Shown here piece after piece: positions 5,455-10,644 of a stretch of 32,974 nucleotides of DNA (the first letter of the stretch is position 1; each line of letters begins with the position of its first letter). The stretch lies in the NCBI RefSeq assembly GCF_002155965.1, contig NZ_MUMH01000112.1:1-32974 (forward strand), read 5' to 3'. This stretch comes from Allokutzneria sp. NRRL B-24872. GTDB lineage: Bacteria > Actinomycetota > Actinomycetes > Mycobacteriales > Pseudonocardiaceae. The translations under genes and the position numbers were made by a program. The notes under the pieces were generated by a model, which saw nothing but the letters and a program-made list of their open reading frames with translations, was not told the origin of the DNA and did not search any database.

Positions 5455-6015
5455 ATGACCACCCCGTCCAGCGACGCCGAGATCATCGCCGCGAACGTGG
5501 ACTTCGACCCCACGCACAACGCGGCGATCACCCTCGCCGAGTACGACCCCGAGTGGCCCGCGCTCTTCGAGCGGGAGGCGGAACGCCTGCGGTCGCTGCT
5601 CGGCGACGCGTTCGTCCTCGCCGAGCACACCGGCTCCACGTCCGTGCCCGGCCTGGCCGCGAAGCCGATCATCGACATGACCGTCGCGGTCGTCGACTCC
5701 GCGGACGAGGCCGCCTACGTGCCGCAGATGGAGGCAGCGGGGTACGTGCTGCGGGTGCGCGAGCCGGAGTGGTTCGAGCACCGCATGTTCAAGGGGCCGG
5801 ACACCAACGTCAACCTGCACGTGTTCACTGCGGGGTGCTCAGAGATCGAGCGGATGACGCGCTTCCGCGACCACCTGCGCGCCAACGACTCCGACCGGGA
5901 GCTGTACGAGCGGACCAAGCGCGATCTGGCCGGGCGCACGTGGAAGTACGTGCAGAACTACGCCGACGCCAAGACCGAGGTGATCCAGGAGATCATGCGG
6001 CGCGCAGGCGGCTGA
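5455..6015 (+). CDS. GrpB family protein (nucleotidyltransferase fold)
   Basis: A 186-aa cytoplasmic protein of the GrpB/UPF0157 family, with a nucleotidyltransferase-like fold; the family is sometimes fused to dephospho-CoA kinase. Clear signatures are ITLAEYDPEWPALFEREAERL, EHTGSTSVPGLAAKPIIDMTVAV (the GST..GLxxKPIID core), HRMFKG and NLHVF. The ATG at 5455 is supported by CAGGAAGGAA just upstream; the frame is open much further upstream only because it runs antisense to hisG and hisE. The biochemical function is not established for the family. Its last 23 nt overlap the end of the convergent EspG gene. Confidence 0.9.
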   Translation: MTTPSSDAEIIAANVDFDPTHNAAITLAEYDPEWPALFEREAERLRSLLGDAFVLAEHTGSTSVPGLAAKPIIDMTVAVVDSADEAAYVPQMEAAGYVLRVREPEWFEHRMFKGPDTNVNLHVFTAGCSEIERMTRFRDHLRANDSDRELYERTKRDLAGRTWKYVQNYADAKTEVIQEIMRRAGG

Positions 6016-6667
6016 CCAGGTCGCTCGCGGCGGCGGGACCGACGACCAGCCAGGGGTCCCCGGCGGCGTCGGCCCGTCGCACGCACAGGTAGCGCCCGCC
6101 TCCGGTGTCGAAGTAGTGCACCGACGCGCCGATGCCCTCGCGCGTGGTGCGGAGCATGAGGCCGCCACCGCTCCTCGGGCTCTCCAGCAGCGACCGGCAG
6201 CGCCGCAGTTCCAGCTCCTCGGGATGCGCCTGGACAAGCAGCGAATCCCGTGCGCGTGGGCGCTCGGGCACCGAGACCACCCCGCCTCGCCCCGGCGGCA
6301 TCGGGGGCAGTGCCGAGACCAGCACCTCCGCCGCCCGCTCGGCGGGAGCCGTCTCCAGCGTGACGTGCCCCGGCTCCACCACCACGCGCAGCGCGGCCCG
6401 CTGACCAGCCGCGACGTGCGCCGAACAGCTCCGCTCCACGCCGCCGAACCAGCCGGAGTACTCCACCGACGGCGCGCGCAGCAACGACATCTCCGCCGCC
6501 AGATCGCCGTGCGGCTCCAGTTCCCGCCACGCCAGCTGTTCCAACTCCTGCCGCTCCTGGGCCGTTCTGCCCGGCGAGGGCACCATCGCCAGCGCGGGCG
6601 GTTTCGTGCCGAGGCCGTGCCACTGCCACAGCACGTCGAAGGCCAGCGCGGAAATCGTCACCCGCAT
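5993..6667 (-). CDS. EspG-like ESX secretion chaperone
   Basis: A 224-aa protein resembling the EspG family of type VII secretion. These are cytoplasmic chaperones that bind the tip of PPE proteins in PE-PPE pairs and keep them soluble until the ESX machine takes them. Family-like features are the opening VTISALAFDVLWQWHGLG (EspG proteins typically start with such a strand followed by an LxxxLG segment), the central strands ALRVVVEPGHVTLETAP, and the GGRYLCVRRADAAGDPWLVVGPA end. It starts 2 nt after the PPE stop, so it is translated from the same mRNA, and is the last gene of the cassette. No ESX core gene (eccB, eccC, eccD, mycP) is in the window, so the secretion machine must be encoded elsewhere. 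Family membership is from pattern memory. Confidence 0.78.
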   Translation of the reverse strand: MRVTISALAFDVLWQWHGLGTKPPALAMVPSPGRTAQERQELEQLAWRELEPHGDLAAEMSLLRAPSVEYSGWFGGVERSCSAHVAAGQRAALRVVVEPGHVTLETAPAERAAEVLVSALPPMPPGRGGVVSVPERPRARDSLLVQAHPEELELRRCRSLLESPRSGGGLMLRTTREGIGASVHYFDTGGGRYLCVRRADAAGDPWLVVGPAAASDLVSRLRAA

Positions 6668-6669
6668 GT

Positions 6670-7872
6670 TCAGGGCTCCTCACCGATGACGGGCGGAGCG
6701 ACCTTCTGCATGTCGTTGGTGAACACGTCGTCGACCTCCACCAACCACGACGGGCGCTGGTGCTCCTCGTCCTCCGCGCCACCCGCCTGCCCGCCCATCG
6801 GCCCCGCCATGGGCGCTCCGCCCGGCTTCGCCGCTGCCCGTGCCGCCGGGGTCATCCCCGCGACACCGCGCCCGGTCTCTCCGCGCCCCGTTTCGCCCAG
6901 CGTGCCGCGCCCGGCGCCTTGTCCTGCTTGTCCTGCTTGTCCTGCTTGTCCTGCGCCCAGCCTGCTGCCGCCCGCGCCCCTGGCGCTCCCCGCGTCGCCA
7001 GCTCCACCTGCTCCCAGCGCGAGCCCGCCCATCGCTCCCAGGCCACCGATCGCTCCGCCGAGCCCCTGGTCCGTGGCACCGCTCTGGCCCCCGGATTCCG
7101 GTCGCCACGGCTGCGGGCCCGCTTGGCCGTGCTGCGGCGGAGGAGGCACGAAGGAGGCGCTCTCCGACTCGCCGCGCTGTCCCGTGCCGCCCTGTTCCGC
7201 GCCGCTTCCTCCGGCCCCTTGCCAGCCTCCGCCCAGGTCACCGCCACCGCCGCCTCGTGGACCGCGTCCTTCTGGTGGCAGGCGTGGAGGGCTCGGATCA
7301 CGCGGCGGCGCTTCCGGCGGCTTCACCTCTCCGCCCGCGCCGCCGGGCGGGCTGAACTCCGGCATCGCCTGGACCGCCGTGTTGGAGCTCGTCCCGTAGC
7401 CCTCCGCCACCCGGACGTTGTGCTCCAGGTTCGCCACCCACCGCTGCATCGTCTTCACGTATTGCGACGCGTCGGGAGCTCCACTGAGCCCGACCGTGAA
7501 CTGCTTCGTGTCCGGGACCGGGCTCGGCGGCTCGACGCTGTTCTTGGCGCGGAAGAACGCGTCGCGCAACAGCGCCACCTGCTTCTGCGTACCGTCCGCG
7601 ACCTGCTTGATCCCGTCCGCCCACGCCACCATCGGGCTCATCCCGCCCCTGGCGGACTCCGCGGCGCCGCCCGTCCAGAACGCCCGCGACTCCTCGACCC
7701 CCGCCTTGAGGATGCTGTGCACCTCCGCGTGGATCGTGGTGATCCGCTTCAGCGTGTCCTCCGCGATCGAGCACGCGGCCTGCGGCCCCGGCCCTCCGTG
7801 GAACCAGTTGTAGATCGTCTGCGAGTCGTAGCCCGCCGGCCGCGCCTCACCCACGATGGTCTTGGTGAACAC
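6670..7872 (-). CDS. PPE-domain protein, type VII secretion substrate with Gly/Ala-rich tail
   Basis: A 400-aa protein with three parts. Residues 1 to about 165 form a helical PPE-type domain (YNWFHGGPGPQAACSIAED, then a turn with W66-T-G68 in AFWTGGAAES, then MVAWADGIKQVADGTQKQ). Residues about 185-360 are low-complexity Gly/Pro/Ala, including a four-fold Ala-Gly-Gln repeat. The last 40 residues are an acidic tail (PSWLVEVDDVFTND). Translation begins at a GTG with GGGGAG 6-9 nt upstream, 3 nt after the lipoprotein stop. The WxG turn is the partner half of the composite ESX secretion signal. Its neighbours, an EspG chaperone and PE-like proteins with YxxxE tails, fit export as a heterodimer. 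The function outside the cell is unknown. Confidence 0.8.
   Translation of the reverse strand: MFTKTIVGEARPAGYDSQTIYNWFHGGPGPQAACSIAEDTLKRITTIHAEVHSILKAGVEESRAFWTGGAAESARGGMSPMVAWADGIKQVADGTQKQVALLRDAFFRAKNSVEPPSPVPDTKQFTVGLSGAPDASQYVKTMQRWVANLEHNVRVAEGYGTSSNTAVQAMPEFSPPGGAGGEVKPPEAPPRDPSPPRLPPEGRGPRGGGGGDLGGGWQGAGGSGAEQGGTGQRGESESASFVPPPPQHGQAGPQPWRPESGGQSGATDQGLGGAIGGLGAMGGLALGAGGAGDAGSARGAGGSRLGAGQAGQAGQAGQGAGRGTLGETGRGETGRGVAGMTPAARAAAKPGGAPMAGPMGGQAGGAEDEEHQRPSWLVEVDDVFTNDMQKVAPPVIGEEP
6918..6953 (-). repeat. 9-bp tandem repeat, four perfect copies, inside the PPE gene
   Basis: CTTGTCCTG (plus strand) is repeated four times without a mismatch. On the coding strand it encodes Ala-Gly-Gln in frame, so copy changes alter tail length in steps of three residues without a frameshift. 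Such perfect arrays are prone to slippage. Confidence 0.9.
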
Positions 7873-7875
7873 CGC

Positions 7876-8460
7876 TCAGCTCCCCGCCTTCAACTTCTCC
7901 AACACCCACAACGCCACCTTGTCCGCGGGCTTGCACGGCTGCTCGTAGTCCGCGTTCGGCCGGTGTGCAGACGCAGCCACCTGATAGGCGACAAGCGGAG
8001 CGATACCCACGGTCGTGAAACAGCTGCCTTCCGGCGTCGTGGTCCCGATCGGCGTCTTGTTGTCACCGTTGATCGCCGGGTACCCACCGATCGTGGTCTC
8101 CGCGAAGTAGCCCCAGTCGCGGCGCTGGTAAATCGGAACAAGACCAGCGCCGTTCACGAACAGCGTGACCGAGATACCGGTGTCCATCGACTTGTCGGCC
8201 TCCCACGTGCAGTTGGGGCCGAGTGGGTACGACGTCACCTTGCCCGGATCCGTAATGATGCCGATCGTCGCCAACTGGTCTCGCGAGAGTAGATCGCAGG
8301 GCCTGGCAACGAACTTGTCGTAGGACAGTTCGGGCTGCGTGAACGGCGGCGGAACGGTGCTGTCAGGGCCGCGAACGACTTCCATCGGCTGCCCCACCGT
8401 CGCCTGACCGCAACCCGCAGCCACCAACACGAACGTGCAGCACAACCAGCGTCCTCGCAT
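7876..8460 (-). CDS. DUF3558-type lipoprotein, copy 1 (next to PPE)
   Basis: A 194-aa exported lipoprotein. MRGRWLCCTFVLVAAGC is a lipoprotein signal peptide with lipobox AAGC (lipidated Cys17), followed by a Pro-rich linker and a domain with four more cysteines (RPCDLL, PNCTWE, GSCFTT, QPCKPA) that could make two disulfides. The pattern PCDLLSRDQL, then SYPLGPNCTWE, then AYQVAASAH fits the actinobacterial DUF3558 family. The ATG at 8460 is chosen because it starts the signal peptide and overlaps the upstream stop as TGATG, indicating coupled translation. It probably sits on the outer face of the membrane. Its place between PE-like and PPE genes suggests a role in handling or anchoring the secreted proteins, but that is inference. 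Confidence 0.82.
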   Translation of the reverse strand: MRGRWLCCTFVLVAAGCGQATVGQPMEVVRGPDSTVPPPFTQPELSYDKFVARPCDLLSRDQLATIGIITDPGKVTSYPLGPNCTWEADKSMDTGISVTLFVNGAGLVPIYQRRDWGYFAETTIGGYPAINGDNKTPIGTTTPEGSCFTTVGIAPLVAYQVAASAHRPNADYEQPCKPADKVALWVLEKLKAGS

Positions 8461-8870
8461 CAAACACCCCGACCAAACCTGCGACGGTTCCGCTCCTCGG
8501 CGTCCTGATAGATCTTCAGCGACGCCTCCAACTTCGCGATCAAGCCATCCAACTGCGCGATCGCTCCCTCGTTCGCCCACGAGTAGCCGCCGGGCTCGGG
8601 CCCCAGCCTCTTCATGATCACCTCCACCGCAGCGATGCTGTAAGGGTCATGAGGCAGAGGCGCATGCCCAAACTGATAGTGAAGGTTGCGCAGGCTCGTC
8701 AGCTTGGCTCGTGCTTCGCGCAAGGCCCGGATGAGACGTGGAGCTCCGTCAGGATCGACGGTGTAGCCGCCGCTCGAACCCACACCACCAACGCTGACCT
8801 GCGGTATCTCCGCCGACTCGACATACGGACCGCCTTGGCCAGCCCCCGGTGTCATCCCCGATCCAGACAT
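8460..8870 (-). CDS. PE-like small helical protein with YxxxE tail, copy 1
   Basis: A 136-aa protein without signal peptide. A Gly/Ser-rich start is followed by YTVDPDGAPRLIRALREAR, an amphipathic helix, a central DPYSIAAVE..GPEPGGYSWAN turn, and a second long helix LDGLIAKLEASLKIYQDAEER. Tyr121 and Glu125 make a YxxxE motif just after the second helix, matching the general YxxxD/E signal of type VII secretion substrates. The two-helix layout, the motif and the PPE/EspG neighbours suggest it is the PE-like partner of the PPE protein. I do not recognise a named family, so this role is inferred. The ATG at 8870 follows GGGGAGGA, which itself lies inside the PPE stub left by the duplication. Confidence 0.65.
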   Translation of the reverse strand: MSGSGMTPGAGQGGPYVESAEIPQVSVGGVGSSGGYTVDPDGAPRLIRALREARAKLTSLRNLHYQFGHAPLPHDPYSIAAVEVIMKRLGPEPGGYSWANEGAIAQLDGLIAKLEASLKIYQDAEERNRRRFGRGV

Positions 8871-8872
8871 CG

Positions 8873-8905
8873 TCAGTCCTCCCCTGCGATGGTCTTGGTG
8901 AACAC
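8873..8905 (-). pseudogene. 10-codon stub of the PPE gene left by tandem duplication
   Basis: Three nt after the upstream lipoprotein stop, the minus strand reads GTG followed by codons for FTKTIAGED and a TGA stop. The intact PPE gene begins MFTKTIVGE at exactly the same spacing from its own upstream lipoprotein. This is therefore the severed 5' end of a PPE gene, cut when the unit was duplicated. Its GGGGAGGA now serves as the ribosome site of the next PE-like gene. If translated it would yield only a 10-residue peptide. Confidence 0.85.
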
Positions 8906-8908
8906 CGC

Positions 8909-9499
8909 TCAGCCCCCCGCCTTCAGCTTCTCCAACACCCACAACGCCACCTTGTCCGCAGGCTTGCACGGCTGCTCGTAGTCCGCATTCGGCCTGTGCG
9001 CCGACACGGCCACCTGATAAGCGACCAGCGGAGCGATCCCCACGGTCGTGAAACAAGTGGCTTCCGGCGTCGTGGTCCCGATCGGCGTCTTGTTGTCGGT
9101 GTTGATCGCCGGGTAACCACCGATCGTGATCTCCGCGAAGTAGCCCCAATCACTGCGCTGGCGCTGGTACGCAGGAACCAGGCCAGCGCCGTTCACGAAC
9201 AGCGTGACCGCGATACCGGTGTCCATCGACTTGTCGGCCTCCCACGCGCAGTTGGGACCGAGGGGGTACGCCGAGACCTTGCCTGGGTCGGTGATGATGC
9301 CGATCGACGCCAACTGCTCTCGCGAGAGCAGATCGCAGGGCCTGGAAACGAACTTGTCGTAGGACAGGACGGGTTGTGTGAACGGCGGCGGGCCCGAGCC
9401 GCCGGGGCCGCTGACGACTTCCGTTGGCTGTCCCGCCATGACCTGACTGCAGCCCGACACCACGAGAACGAACGTGAAGCACAACAGGCGACGCCGCAT
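8909..9499 (-). CDS. DUF3558-type lipoprotein, copy 2
   Basis: A 196-aa paralogue of the lipoprotein at 7876-8460, with the same layout: signal peptide MRRRLLCFTFVLVVSGC (lipobox VSGC, Cys17), Pro-rich linker, and the same four further cysteines. It differs mainly in the linker (EVVSGPGGSG) and by a two-residue insertion at YQRQRSDWGYFAE. The ATG at 9499 overlaps the stop of the PE-like gene as TGATG. Both copies keep the lipobox, all cysteines and an intact frame, so neither is decaying. Membrane-anchored on the outer face by family logic; its relation to the PPE protein is inferred from gene order. Confidence 0.82.
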   Translation of the reverse strand: MRRRLLCFTFVLVVSGCSQVMAGQPTEVVSGPGGSGPPPFTQPVLSYDKFVSRPCDLLSREQLASIGIITDPGKVSAYPLGPNCAWEADKSMDTGIAVTLFVNGAGLVPAYQRQRSDWGYFAEITIGGYPAINTDNKTPIGTTTPEATCFTTVGIAPLVAYQVAVSAHRPNADYEQPCKPADKVALWVLEKLKAGG

Positions 9500-9909
9500 C
9501 ACACCCCCCGACCGAACCGGCGACGGTTCCGTTCCTCGGCGTCCCGATAGATCTTCAGTGACGCCTCCAACTTCGCGATCAAAGCGTCCAGTTGCACGAT
9601 CGCTGCTGTGTTCGCCCACACGTATCCCCCGGGCTCTGGCCCGAGTCGTCGTTTGATCGCCTCCACCGCAGCGATGCTGTACGGATCAACAGGCATAGGC
9701 ACATGCCCAAACTGCTCCTGGAGCCTGCCGAGGCTCGCCAGTTTGTCTCGCGCCTCGCGCAAGGCGCGGATGAGGCGCGGGGCGCCGTCGGGATCGACGG
9801 TGTAGCCACCACTCGAACCCACGCCACCAACGCTGACCTGCGGAATTATCGTTGACTCCGCGTACGGGCCACCCTGGTCAGCCCCCGGTGCCGTCCCTGA
9901 TCCGGACAT
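9499..9909 (-). CDS. PE-like small helical protein with YxxxE tail, copy 2 (first gene of the cassette)
   Basis: A 136-aa paralogue of the protein at 8460-8870 with identical length. The segments VGGVGSSGGYTVDPDGAPRL and ALREAR are unchanged; differences cluster in the loop after the first helix (KLASLGRLQEQFGHVPMPVDP) and in the second helix. The YxxxE motif is kept (Tyr121, Glu125). The variable loop could change partner choice. Translation starts at an ATG at 9909 behind GGGGGAGGG. It is the promoter-proximal gene, with only 54 bp to the end of the HAD gene upstream on the same strand, so the cassette either has a promoter in that gap or is read through from metH. I saw no clear promoter there. 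Confidence 0.65.
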   Translation of the reverse strand: MSGSGTAPGADQGGPYAESTIIPQVSVGGVGSSGGYTVDPDGAPRLIRALREARDKLASLGRLQEQFGHVPMPVDPYSIAAVEAIKRRLGPEPGGYVWANTAAIVQLDALIAKLEASLKIYRDAEERNRRRFGRGV

Positions 9910-9963
9910 CGTCCAGCCCTCCCCCTGTGCGCTCCCCGCAACCAGGAAAGCAGATCGGGAGAA

Positions 9964-10644
9964 TCAGCGGGACAGGAGCGCGGTCAATTCGGCGAGGTCC
10001 ACTCCGACAAGCGATTCGCGGAATATCCGGCGTTCGCCTGAATTCACCGGGACGTCGCAGGGAATCACCAGAACGGTGGCTCCGGAAGCGACTCCGGCGG
10101 TGACCCCGGTCGGGGAGTCCTCGACGACGACGCAGCGGGTGATGTCGACGCCGAGGCGGGCGGCGGCGGTCAGGTAGGGCTCCGGATCGGGCTTGGGGTT
10201 GGTGACCTCGTCGCCGCAGACGGTGAGGTCGAAGTGCTCGCGGCCGATGGTGTCGAGGGCGATCTCGGTCAGCTCGCGGACGGTGGAGGTGACGAGCGCG
10301 GTGGGGACGCCGCTGGAGCGGATCGCGCGCAGCGCCTCGGGGGCGCCGGGGCGCCACGGCAGCCCGGCGGCGAACAGCTCACCGGTGCGCGCGATGAGCC
10401 AGTCACCGGCCTCGGTGAGCGCGGCGGGCTCGGGCGGGCGGCCGAGTGCGGCGAAGAGCAGGCGCAGGGTGCGTTCCTGGTTGGAGCCGACCATCTCCGC
10501 CCTGGTCTCGGCGGACAGCTCGCCGCCGAGGCGGACCGCGAGCTCGGCCAGCGGGATGTCCCAGATCTTCTCCGAGTCCACGAGCGTGCCGTCCATGTCC
10601 CACAGCACGGCCGCCGGGCCGTCCACAAAGGACGGTCTGGTCAC
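9964..10644 (-). CDS. HAD-superfamily phosphatase/phosphomutase-like (subfamily IA)
   Basis: A 226-aa cytoplasmic haloacid-dehalogenase-fold hydrolase acting on a small phosphorylated metabolite. Motif I is DMDGT with Asp16 nucleophile and Asp18; motif II is the T/S in PTALVTST; motif III is the Lys in NPKPDP; motif IV is VVVEDSPTGV. The helical cap between motifs I and II places it near beta-phosphoglucomutase and related phosphatases. The GTG start at 10644 has GAGGAG upstream and lies only 11 nt after the metH stop, so it is co-expressed with metH. The substrate cannot be told from sequence. Confidence 0.9.
   Translation of the reverse strand: MTRPSFVDGPAAVLWDMDGTLVDSEKIWDIPLAELAVRLGGELSAETRAEMVGSNQERTLRLLFAALGRPPEPAALTEAGDWLIARTGELFAAGLPWRPGAPEALRAIRSSGVPTALVTSTVRELTEIALDTIGREHFDLTVCGDEVTNPKPDPEPYLTAAARLGVDITRCVVVEDSPTGVTAGVASGATVLVIPCDVPVNSGERRIFRESLVGVDLAELTALLSR

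Follow-up and report, generated by a model that had tools for sequence, protein, structure and literature searches.

Six minus-strand genes at 5993-9909 of contig NZ_MUMH01000112.1 of Allokutzneria sp. NRRL B-24872, a member of the Pseudonocardiaceae, very probably form a stand-alone cassette for the export of a PE/PPE protein pair through a type VII secretion (ESX) machine that is encoded elsewhere and acts in trans. The genes, confirmed at these positions, encode two PE-like proteins, two lipoproteins of the DUF3558 family, one PPE-like protein and one EspG-family chaperone (Table 1). PE/PPE proteins are mostly discussed as mycobacterial. Sets of PE, PPE and EspG genes are known; the new part is the DUF3558 lipoprotein, which is probably a dedicated extracytoplasmic partner of the PE/PPE pair. 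The window analysed here is the whole contig (C16, 32,974 bases), in a genome of 8.19 Mb assembled in 475 contigs.

The gene arrangement is not due to chance, as it is seen again in most of 80 related loci. A profile built from relatives of the 136-aa PE-like proteins (A1) matches 196 of the 200 genomes of the family at E <= 1e-5, a count that may include chance hits among the weak matches of a helical profile. From the listed matches a panel of 80 PE-anchored loci in 68 genomes was picked by hand (the best or a high match of each genome plus 12 further matches from genomes already represented), and genes were counted on the same strand within 4.2 kb of the PE gene; some of these stretches end at contig ends (L113, L116, L245, L264 and L280). 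DUF3558 was present in 72 loci, PPE in 67, EspG in 58 and all four components in 56, so that homologues of the 136-aa genes usually lie close to PPE and EspG genes, as the original prediction required. The panel profiles were trained on the same 80 loci; Pfam is an outside check for the lipoprotein, PPE and EspG of the panel, not for PE or for the EspG-anchored loci described below, and it recognised DUF3558 in 72 of 72 lipoproteins, PPE in 66 of 67 proteins at E <= 0.01 and EspG in 58 of 58. The order PE-LIP-PPE-EspG (LIP, lipoprotein gene) was found in 30 loci, EspG-PE-LIP-PPE and PE-LIP in 10 each, and LIP-PE-PPE-EspG, LIP-PE-LIP-PPE-EspG and PE-LIP-PPE in five each, along with other orders. 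To avoid selection by PE, 40 loci anchored on EspG were also picked by hand from the matches listed. The 28 from the same family contain PPE (23), PE (17), the lipoprotein (16) and the PPE tail described below (15), with EspG alone in five; the 12 from family f8, presumably the Mycobacteriaceae, contain PPE in all 12 and PE in two at the threshold used, with neither lipoprotein nor tail in any.

The YxxxE proteins had been proposed as the likely partners of the PPE protein, and the profiles of their relatives support this: the top match of profile A1 in the PDB is PE25 of Mycobacterium tuberculosis (E 1.4e-4), and of 27 relatives, 15 have a Pfam PE match at E <= 0.1. The two window proteins themselves do not match Pfam PE (PF00934) at E <= 1; for this reason they are termed PE-like, as distant homologues and not members of PF00934, and judged by sequence they are distant PE-domain proteins. 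Pro-Glu near the N-terminus is the name-giving motif of the PE family; it is absent there from both proteins, whose single Pro-Glu is internal, before GGY. Tyr121 and Glu125 are present as predicted, but the motif does not end the proteins, since 11 residues remain after it; among the panel loci, Y...[DE] is found near the end of the PE domain in 73. In the structural model of PE-like protein 1, residues 1-36 are of low confidence and helices are predicted at 43-67, 76-89 and 96-132, with Y121-E125 in the last one. The model has the helical hairpin with YxxxD/E that is typical of the PE family; helical hairpins are common. Foldseek returned nothing for this model at E <= 0.001, and in VIA unrelated helical hairpins score equal to PE25. 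A DUF6907 match of the two proteins fell below the cut-off (E 0.0016 and 0.011) and was dismissed as chance.

The N-terminal domain of the 400-aa protein is homologous to PPE, as indicated by a match to PPE4 (1.1e-6) and by Pfam PPE matches in 17 of 17 rows of the alignment. The window protein scores 18.4 bits against Pfam PPE (PF00823), under the cut-off of 26, and is therefore termed PPE-like; its relatives surpass the cut-off (52 bits for L075). A single-sequence phmmer search of the PDB gave no match. The predicted W66-x-G68 is present, and in the PPE alignment (A8) the Trp is nearly invariant and the Gly invariant; WxG occurs in 66 of 71 PPE domains (67 from the panel and four from the genome of the window). 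The PPE family is named after a Pro-Pro-Glu motif near the N-terminus, absent there from the PPE-like protein, in which it has only a chance occurrence in the Pro-rich middle.

The same PPE proteins share a C-terminal tail with the consensus ...ED-x-EH...YLVE-x-DD-x-F...VAPPVIGE; a PPVIG-type end was found in 66 of the 71 by pattern and in 62 by profile. In the genome of the window the tail profile gave seven strong matches (E <= 1.7e-11; the next two at 0.4 or worse), all no more than about 2 kb away from an EspG gene. Two of the seven (L078:5140-6369 and L079:1342-2667) were missed by the PPE profile and by Pfam and adjoin PE-like, DUF3558 and EspG genes in the place expected for PPE. These two loci, L078 (C67, 2442-6369) and L079 (C447, 1342-4355), are more distant cassettes in which the gene of a PPE-like protein recognised by its tail alone is followed by PE-like and DUF3558 genes and then by EspG; in L078 the PE-like and DUF3558 unit occurs twice in tandem. 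There is no tail protein near three of the ten EspG genes of this genome, two on C23 (a tandem pair; L086, 3045-4687) and one on C29 (L085, 2948-3682), and no PE or DUF3558 gene was detected near them either. The idea that the tail is tied to the lipoprotein was rejected, given that L160, which lacks the lipoprotein, keeps much of the tail, and that the tail is reduced in L157, L167, L168 and L192, which carry the lipoprotein.

The last component is clearly an EspG-family protein, as predicted, its Pfam score (Table 1) exceeding the cut-off of 27; in spite of this, neither single-sequence phmmer nor a six-row profile matched it to the PDB. The cluster had also been described as an export unit without the ESX machine, and this description held. 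In a tblastn search at E <= 1e-8 with the two EccB, the EccC, the two EccD and the mycosin-like subtilase of the same genome, which covered roughly 10 kb per locus and less where a contig ended, the 80 panel loci, the 28 EspG-anchored loci of the family and 18 named loci gave no machine gene, whereas the same search gave matches in 11 of the 12 loci of family f8. In the genome of the window, EccB, EccE and a subtilase are encoded on C41, near what we read as ribosomal-protein genes. C439 carries EccD and EccC together with two WXG100 proteins, and C43 has another set of EccB, EccD and subtilase. Against the 10 EspG genes of this genome stand two EccB genes and a single full-length EccC that scores above its cut-off. 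Of the 36 family genomes listed for EccE, 35 carry it; for EspG, with at most 16 candidates scored per genome, the matches range from at least 7 to at least 16 in each of 19 genomes listed. In L205 (C442, 5144-10200) two EccC-like ATPase genes lie next to each other, and no further ESX gene was recognised beside them.

Lipoproteins 1 and 2 match DUF3558 (PF12079) with 76.3 and 84.7 bits, respectively (cut-off, 34.1), and the lipobox Cys is residue 17 in both. Each is encoded by a gene that overlaps the preceding PE-like gene in a TGATG (positions 9499 and 8460), which couples the two, and the interleaved lipoprotein, singled out in the original prediction as the new part, is found again in the related loci. 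In the genome of the window a DUF3558 gene lies directly downstream of seven of the eight PE genes, and upstream of the eighth (L075); under uniform placement, finding it directly downstream of six or more of the eight would have a probability near 2e-14, a figure to be read knowing that paralogues are not independent. The model of lipoprotein 2 is an alpha-beta sandwich that resembles Mog1/PsbP-like proteins by weak Foldseek matches, with 4-14% identity in the aligned parts. No described function for DUF3558 was found in the open-licence literature searched, where the family comes up in a single paper whose title and abstract are unrelated. Of the 33 DUF3558 matches in this genome, 20 are not known to adjoin a PE gene; L091 (C57) and L092 (C49) carry arrays of DUF3558 domains, some with two per open frame, and no PE was detected alongside, which indicates that the family has roles outside the PE cassette.

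These observations suggest the following route. In the cytosol, the PE-like and PPE-like proteins would pair by their helices, joining YxxxE of the former and WxG of the latter; EspG would bind the PPE-like protein and bring the pair to the ESX machine encoded elsewhere. The lipoprotein would exit by Sec, be lipidated and remain anchored at the outer side of the membrane; there its predicted Mog1/PsbP-like domain could bind the exported pair and retain it on the cell surface, in an organism with no mycolate outer membrane. The counterpart export steps are presented as established in mycobacteria in the sections of PMC11217815 that deal with them; by analogy, we infer the same steps here with the machine in trans, and then capture by the lipoprotein. 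For the specific role of holder or receptor of the exported pair at the outer face, in which pairing, export and binding are all deduced, we see an even chance. More tentatively, DUF3558 could be a dedicated additional component of PE/PPE secretion in mycolate-free actinomycetes, in which each cassette supplies a membrane-anchored receptor to capture the exported pair, perhaps via the PPE tail; many interchangeable cassettes would then depend on the same one or two ESX machines to display their products on the cell surface.

Other roles of the lipoprotein have to be weighed against that of holder or receptor. Tsi3, of similar fold, blocks Tse3 in type VI secretion (T6SS), and an immunity-like or protective lipoprotein would likewise shield the membrane of the producer from the exported PE/PPE proteins. 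We regard this as unlikely: none of 10 PPE or PPE-like proteins carries a toxin domain by Pfam at E <= 0.01 (eight match only PPE, WXG100 or EspB, and two match nothing), the region between the PPE domain and the tail is 52-81% Gly, Ala, Pro, Ser and Gln across the 71 proteins, and the lipoprotein gene is mostly located between PE and PPE, not behind an effector. The lipoprotein could instead be an export factor that is loaded per cassette and serves, at the outer face, as a component of the ESX channel or as its docking site for substrates of this class. Its near-constant place beside PE and PPE would fit this role, as would the few machines that serve many substrate sets; nonetheless, six of the 80 panel loci, of the PE-PPE and PE-PPE-EspG types, have no lipoprotein, nor has any EspG locus of family f8, and we give this explanation little credit. 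The same six loci also weigh against the generality of the cassette, together with 11 panel loci that have PE and the lipoprotein and no detected PPE, and two with PE alone (L116, at a contig end, and L122, which is broken).

It is also conceivable that the lipoprotein is an unrelated envelope protein merely co-transcribed with the PE/PPE genes, in line with the many DUF3558 genes not known to lie beside PE and with the tandem lipoprotein genes that come without an extra PE in L081, L117, L139 and L183. This is very unlikely, given that the lipoprotein is kept across the panel in several gene orders, which argues against a frozen order, and that tandem PE-lipoprotein pairs occur both in the genome of the window (in the window itself and in L078) and in two other genomes (L190 and L124).

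The original prediction saw in the two YxxxE proteins two partners for one PPE protein; this part is not supported, because the doubled PE-lipoprotein pair is, from sequence comparison, a tandem duplication in this lineage, and loci with two pairs are a minority. The two units are direct repeats with two blocks that are 91% (7845-8128 and 8878-9161) and 85% identical, at spacings of 1033 and 1039; the repeat also takes in the initial codons of PPE, and this PPE start, closed by a stop, is still present in the gap that precedes PE-like protein 2. In the syntenic locus of another strain, Allokutzneria sp. A3M-2-11 16 (L095), PE and lipoprotein occur once each, along with PPE and EspG, between the same flanking genes (protein identity: HisG 97%, HisE 97%, GrpB 82%, HAD 90% and MetH 93%). 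In the lipoprotein tree, used because the PE tree was too poorly resolved for dating the duplication, both window copies and a paralogue on C430 form a clade (100/99) separate from the L095 orthologue. The dN/dS (0.18 for PE and 0.23 for the lipoprotein) indicates that both copies are under purifying selection; PE rows from genome G001 with wrong coordinates and an internal stop were left out. Partner exchange between the two PE-like proteins is possible, and it is not indicated. A lipoprotein specific to each substrate, also suggested in the original prediction, is a weaker part of it. In the C430 paralogue (L080, 3675-5024) the PE stop is lost, which leaves PE and lipoprotein in one open frame of 347 aa, and PPE is truncated to about 100 codons; a real fusion product was rejected, and the locus is read as a decaying copy, since an internal start and the signal sequence are retained and PPE is truncated.

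The six genes had been described as overlapping or abutting; their places and both TGATG overlaps stand, but lipoprotein 1 and PE-like protein 2 are separated by 38 nt. By Pfam, the cluster is flanked by GrpB, hisE and hisG on one side and by a HAD hydrolase and the B12-dependent methionine synthase (metH) on the other; the 3' ends of the EspG gene and the plus-strand GrpB gene (5455-6015) share 23 nt (5993-6015). Measured in 2-kb steps, the GC content of the window is 68-73% except at 8001-10000, where the duplicated pairs lie and it falls to 64%, perhaps a sign of fast-evolving or foreign sequence. No match was obtained for the six proteins in NCBIfam, nor for PE-like protein 1, lipoprotein 1, the PPE-like protein and EspG in PADLOC.

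Table 1. Features of the putative PE/PPE export cassette, in window coordinates
Feature	Position	Strand	Evidence
PE-like protein 1 (136 aa)	9499..9909	-	profile A1 matches PE25 in PDB
YxxxE motif of PE-like protein 1 (Y121-E125)	9535..9549	-	sequence
DUF3558 lipoprotein 1 (196 aa), lipobox VSGC17	8909..9499	-	Pfam, sequence
Remnant of PPE gene start, 11 codons (VFTKTIAGED-stop), duplication scar	8873..8905	-	sequence, repeat comparison
PE-like protein 2 (136 aa)	8460..8870	-	sequence
YxxxE motif of PE-like protein 2	8496..8510	-	sequence
DUF3558 lipoprotein 2 (194 aa), lipobox AAGC17, predicted alpha-beta sandwich	7876..8460	-	Pfam, model
PPE-like protein (400 aa): PPE helical domain at the N-terminus, middle rich in Gly/Ala/Pro/Ser/Gln, conserved tail at the C-terminus	6670..7872	-	
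WxG turn of PPE-like protein (W66-G68)	7669..7677	-	sequence
Conserved C-terminal tail of PPE-like protein, last 34 residues	6673..6774	-	tail comparison
EspG-family chaperone (224 aa)	5993..6667	-	PF14011, 129.5 bits

Among the open-licence papers listed by the literature searches, none describes a PE-DUF3558-PPE-EspG cassette by title or abstract. The abstract of one review calls PE/PPE proteins unique to mycobacteria (PMC12209268), and an article on Amycolatopsis gives eccB, eccC, eccD and mycP, the term PPE being absent from its main text (PMC11004387). In the relevant passages of Newton-Foot et al. 2016 (PMC4791881), only ESX-4 is named for Pseudonocardiales species, this order is described as having no mycolic acids, and pe, ppe and espG are proposed to have been recruited on a plasmid of a mycolate-bearing species. 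PE/PPE/EspG cassettes are common in this family, with no ESX genes found beside those sampled; they bear on the origin of pe, ppe and espG as framed by the 2016 plasmid model, and they set PE/PPE function apart from transport across an outer membrane. DUF3558, in turn, gains a genetic context and a testable role.

Among known systems, the mycobacterial PE-PPE-EspG sets such as PE25-PPE41-EspG5 have in common with the cassette a PE-like hairpin with YxxxE, a PPE domain with WxG, and EspG; in contrast, here a DUF3558 gene usually lies between PE and PPE, the PPE tail is conserved, no ESX genes are nearby, and the window proteins do not carry the N-terminal Pro-Glu and Pro-Pro-Glu motifs. The Mog1/PsbP-like proteins Tsi3 (T6SS immunity), SciW and EagT6 (T6SS effector chaperones) and LpqN differ from the lipoprotein in partner and role, and the likeness consists of the weak Foldseek matches at 4-14% identity. 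The ESX-4EVOL clusters, as they appear in passages of Newton-Foot et al. 2016 (PMC4791881), also hold pe, ppe and espG outside the mycobacterial ESX-1/2/3/5, together with eccE; in these the genes are inside the ESX cluster of mycolate-bearing species, whereas in the Pseudonocardiaceae they are scattered and lie separately from the machine.
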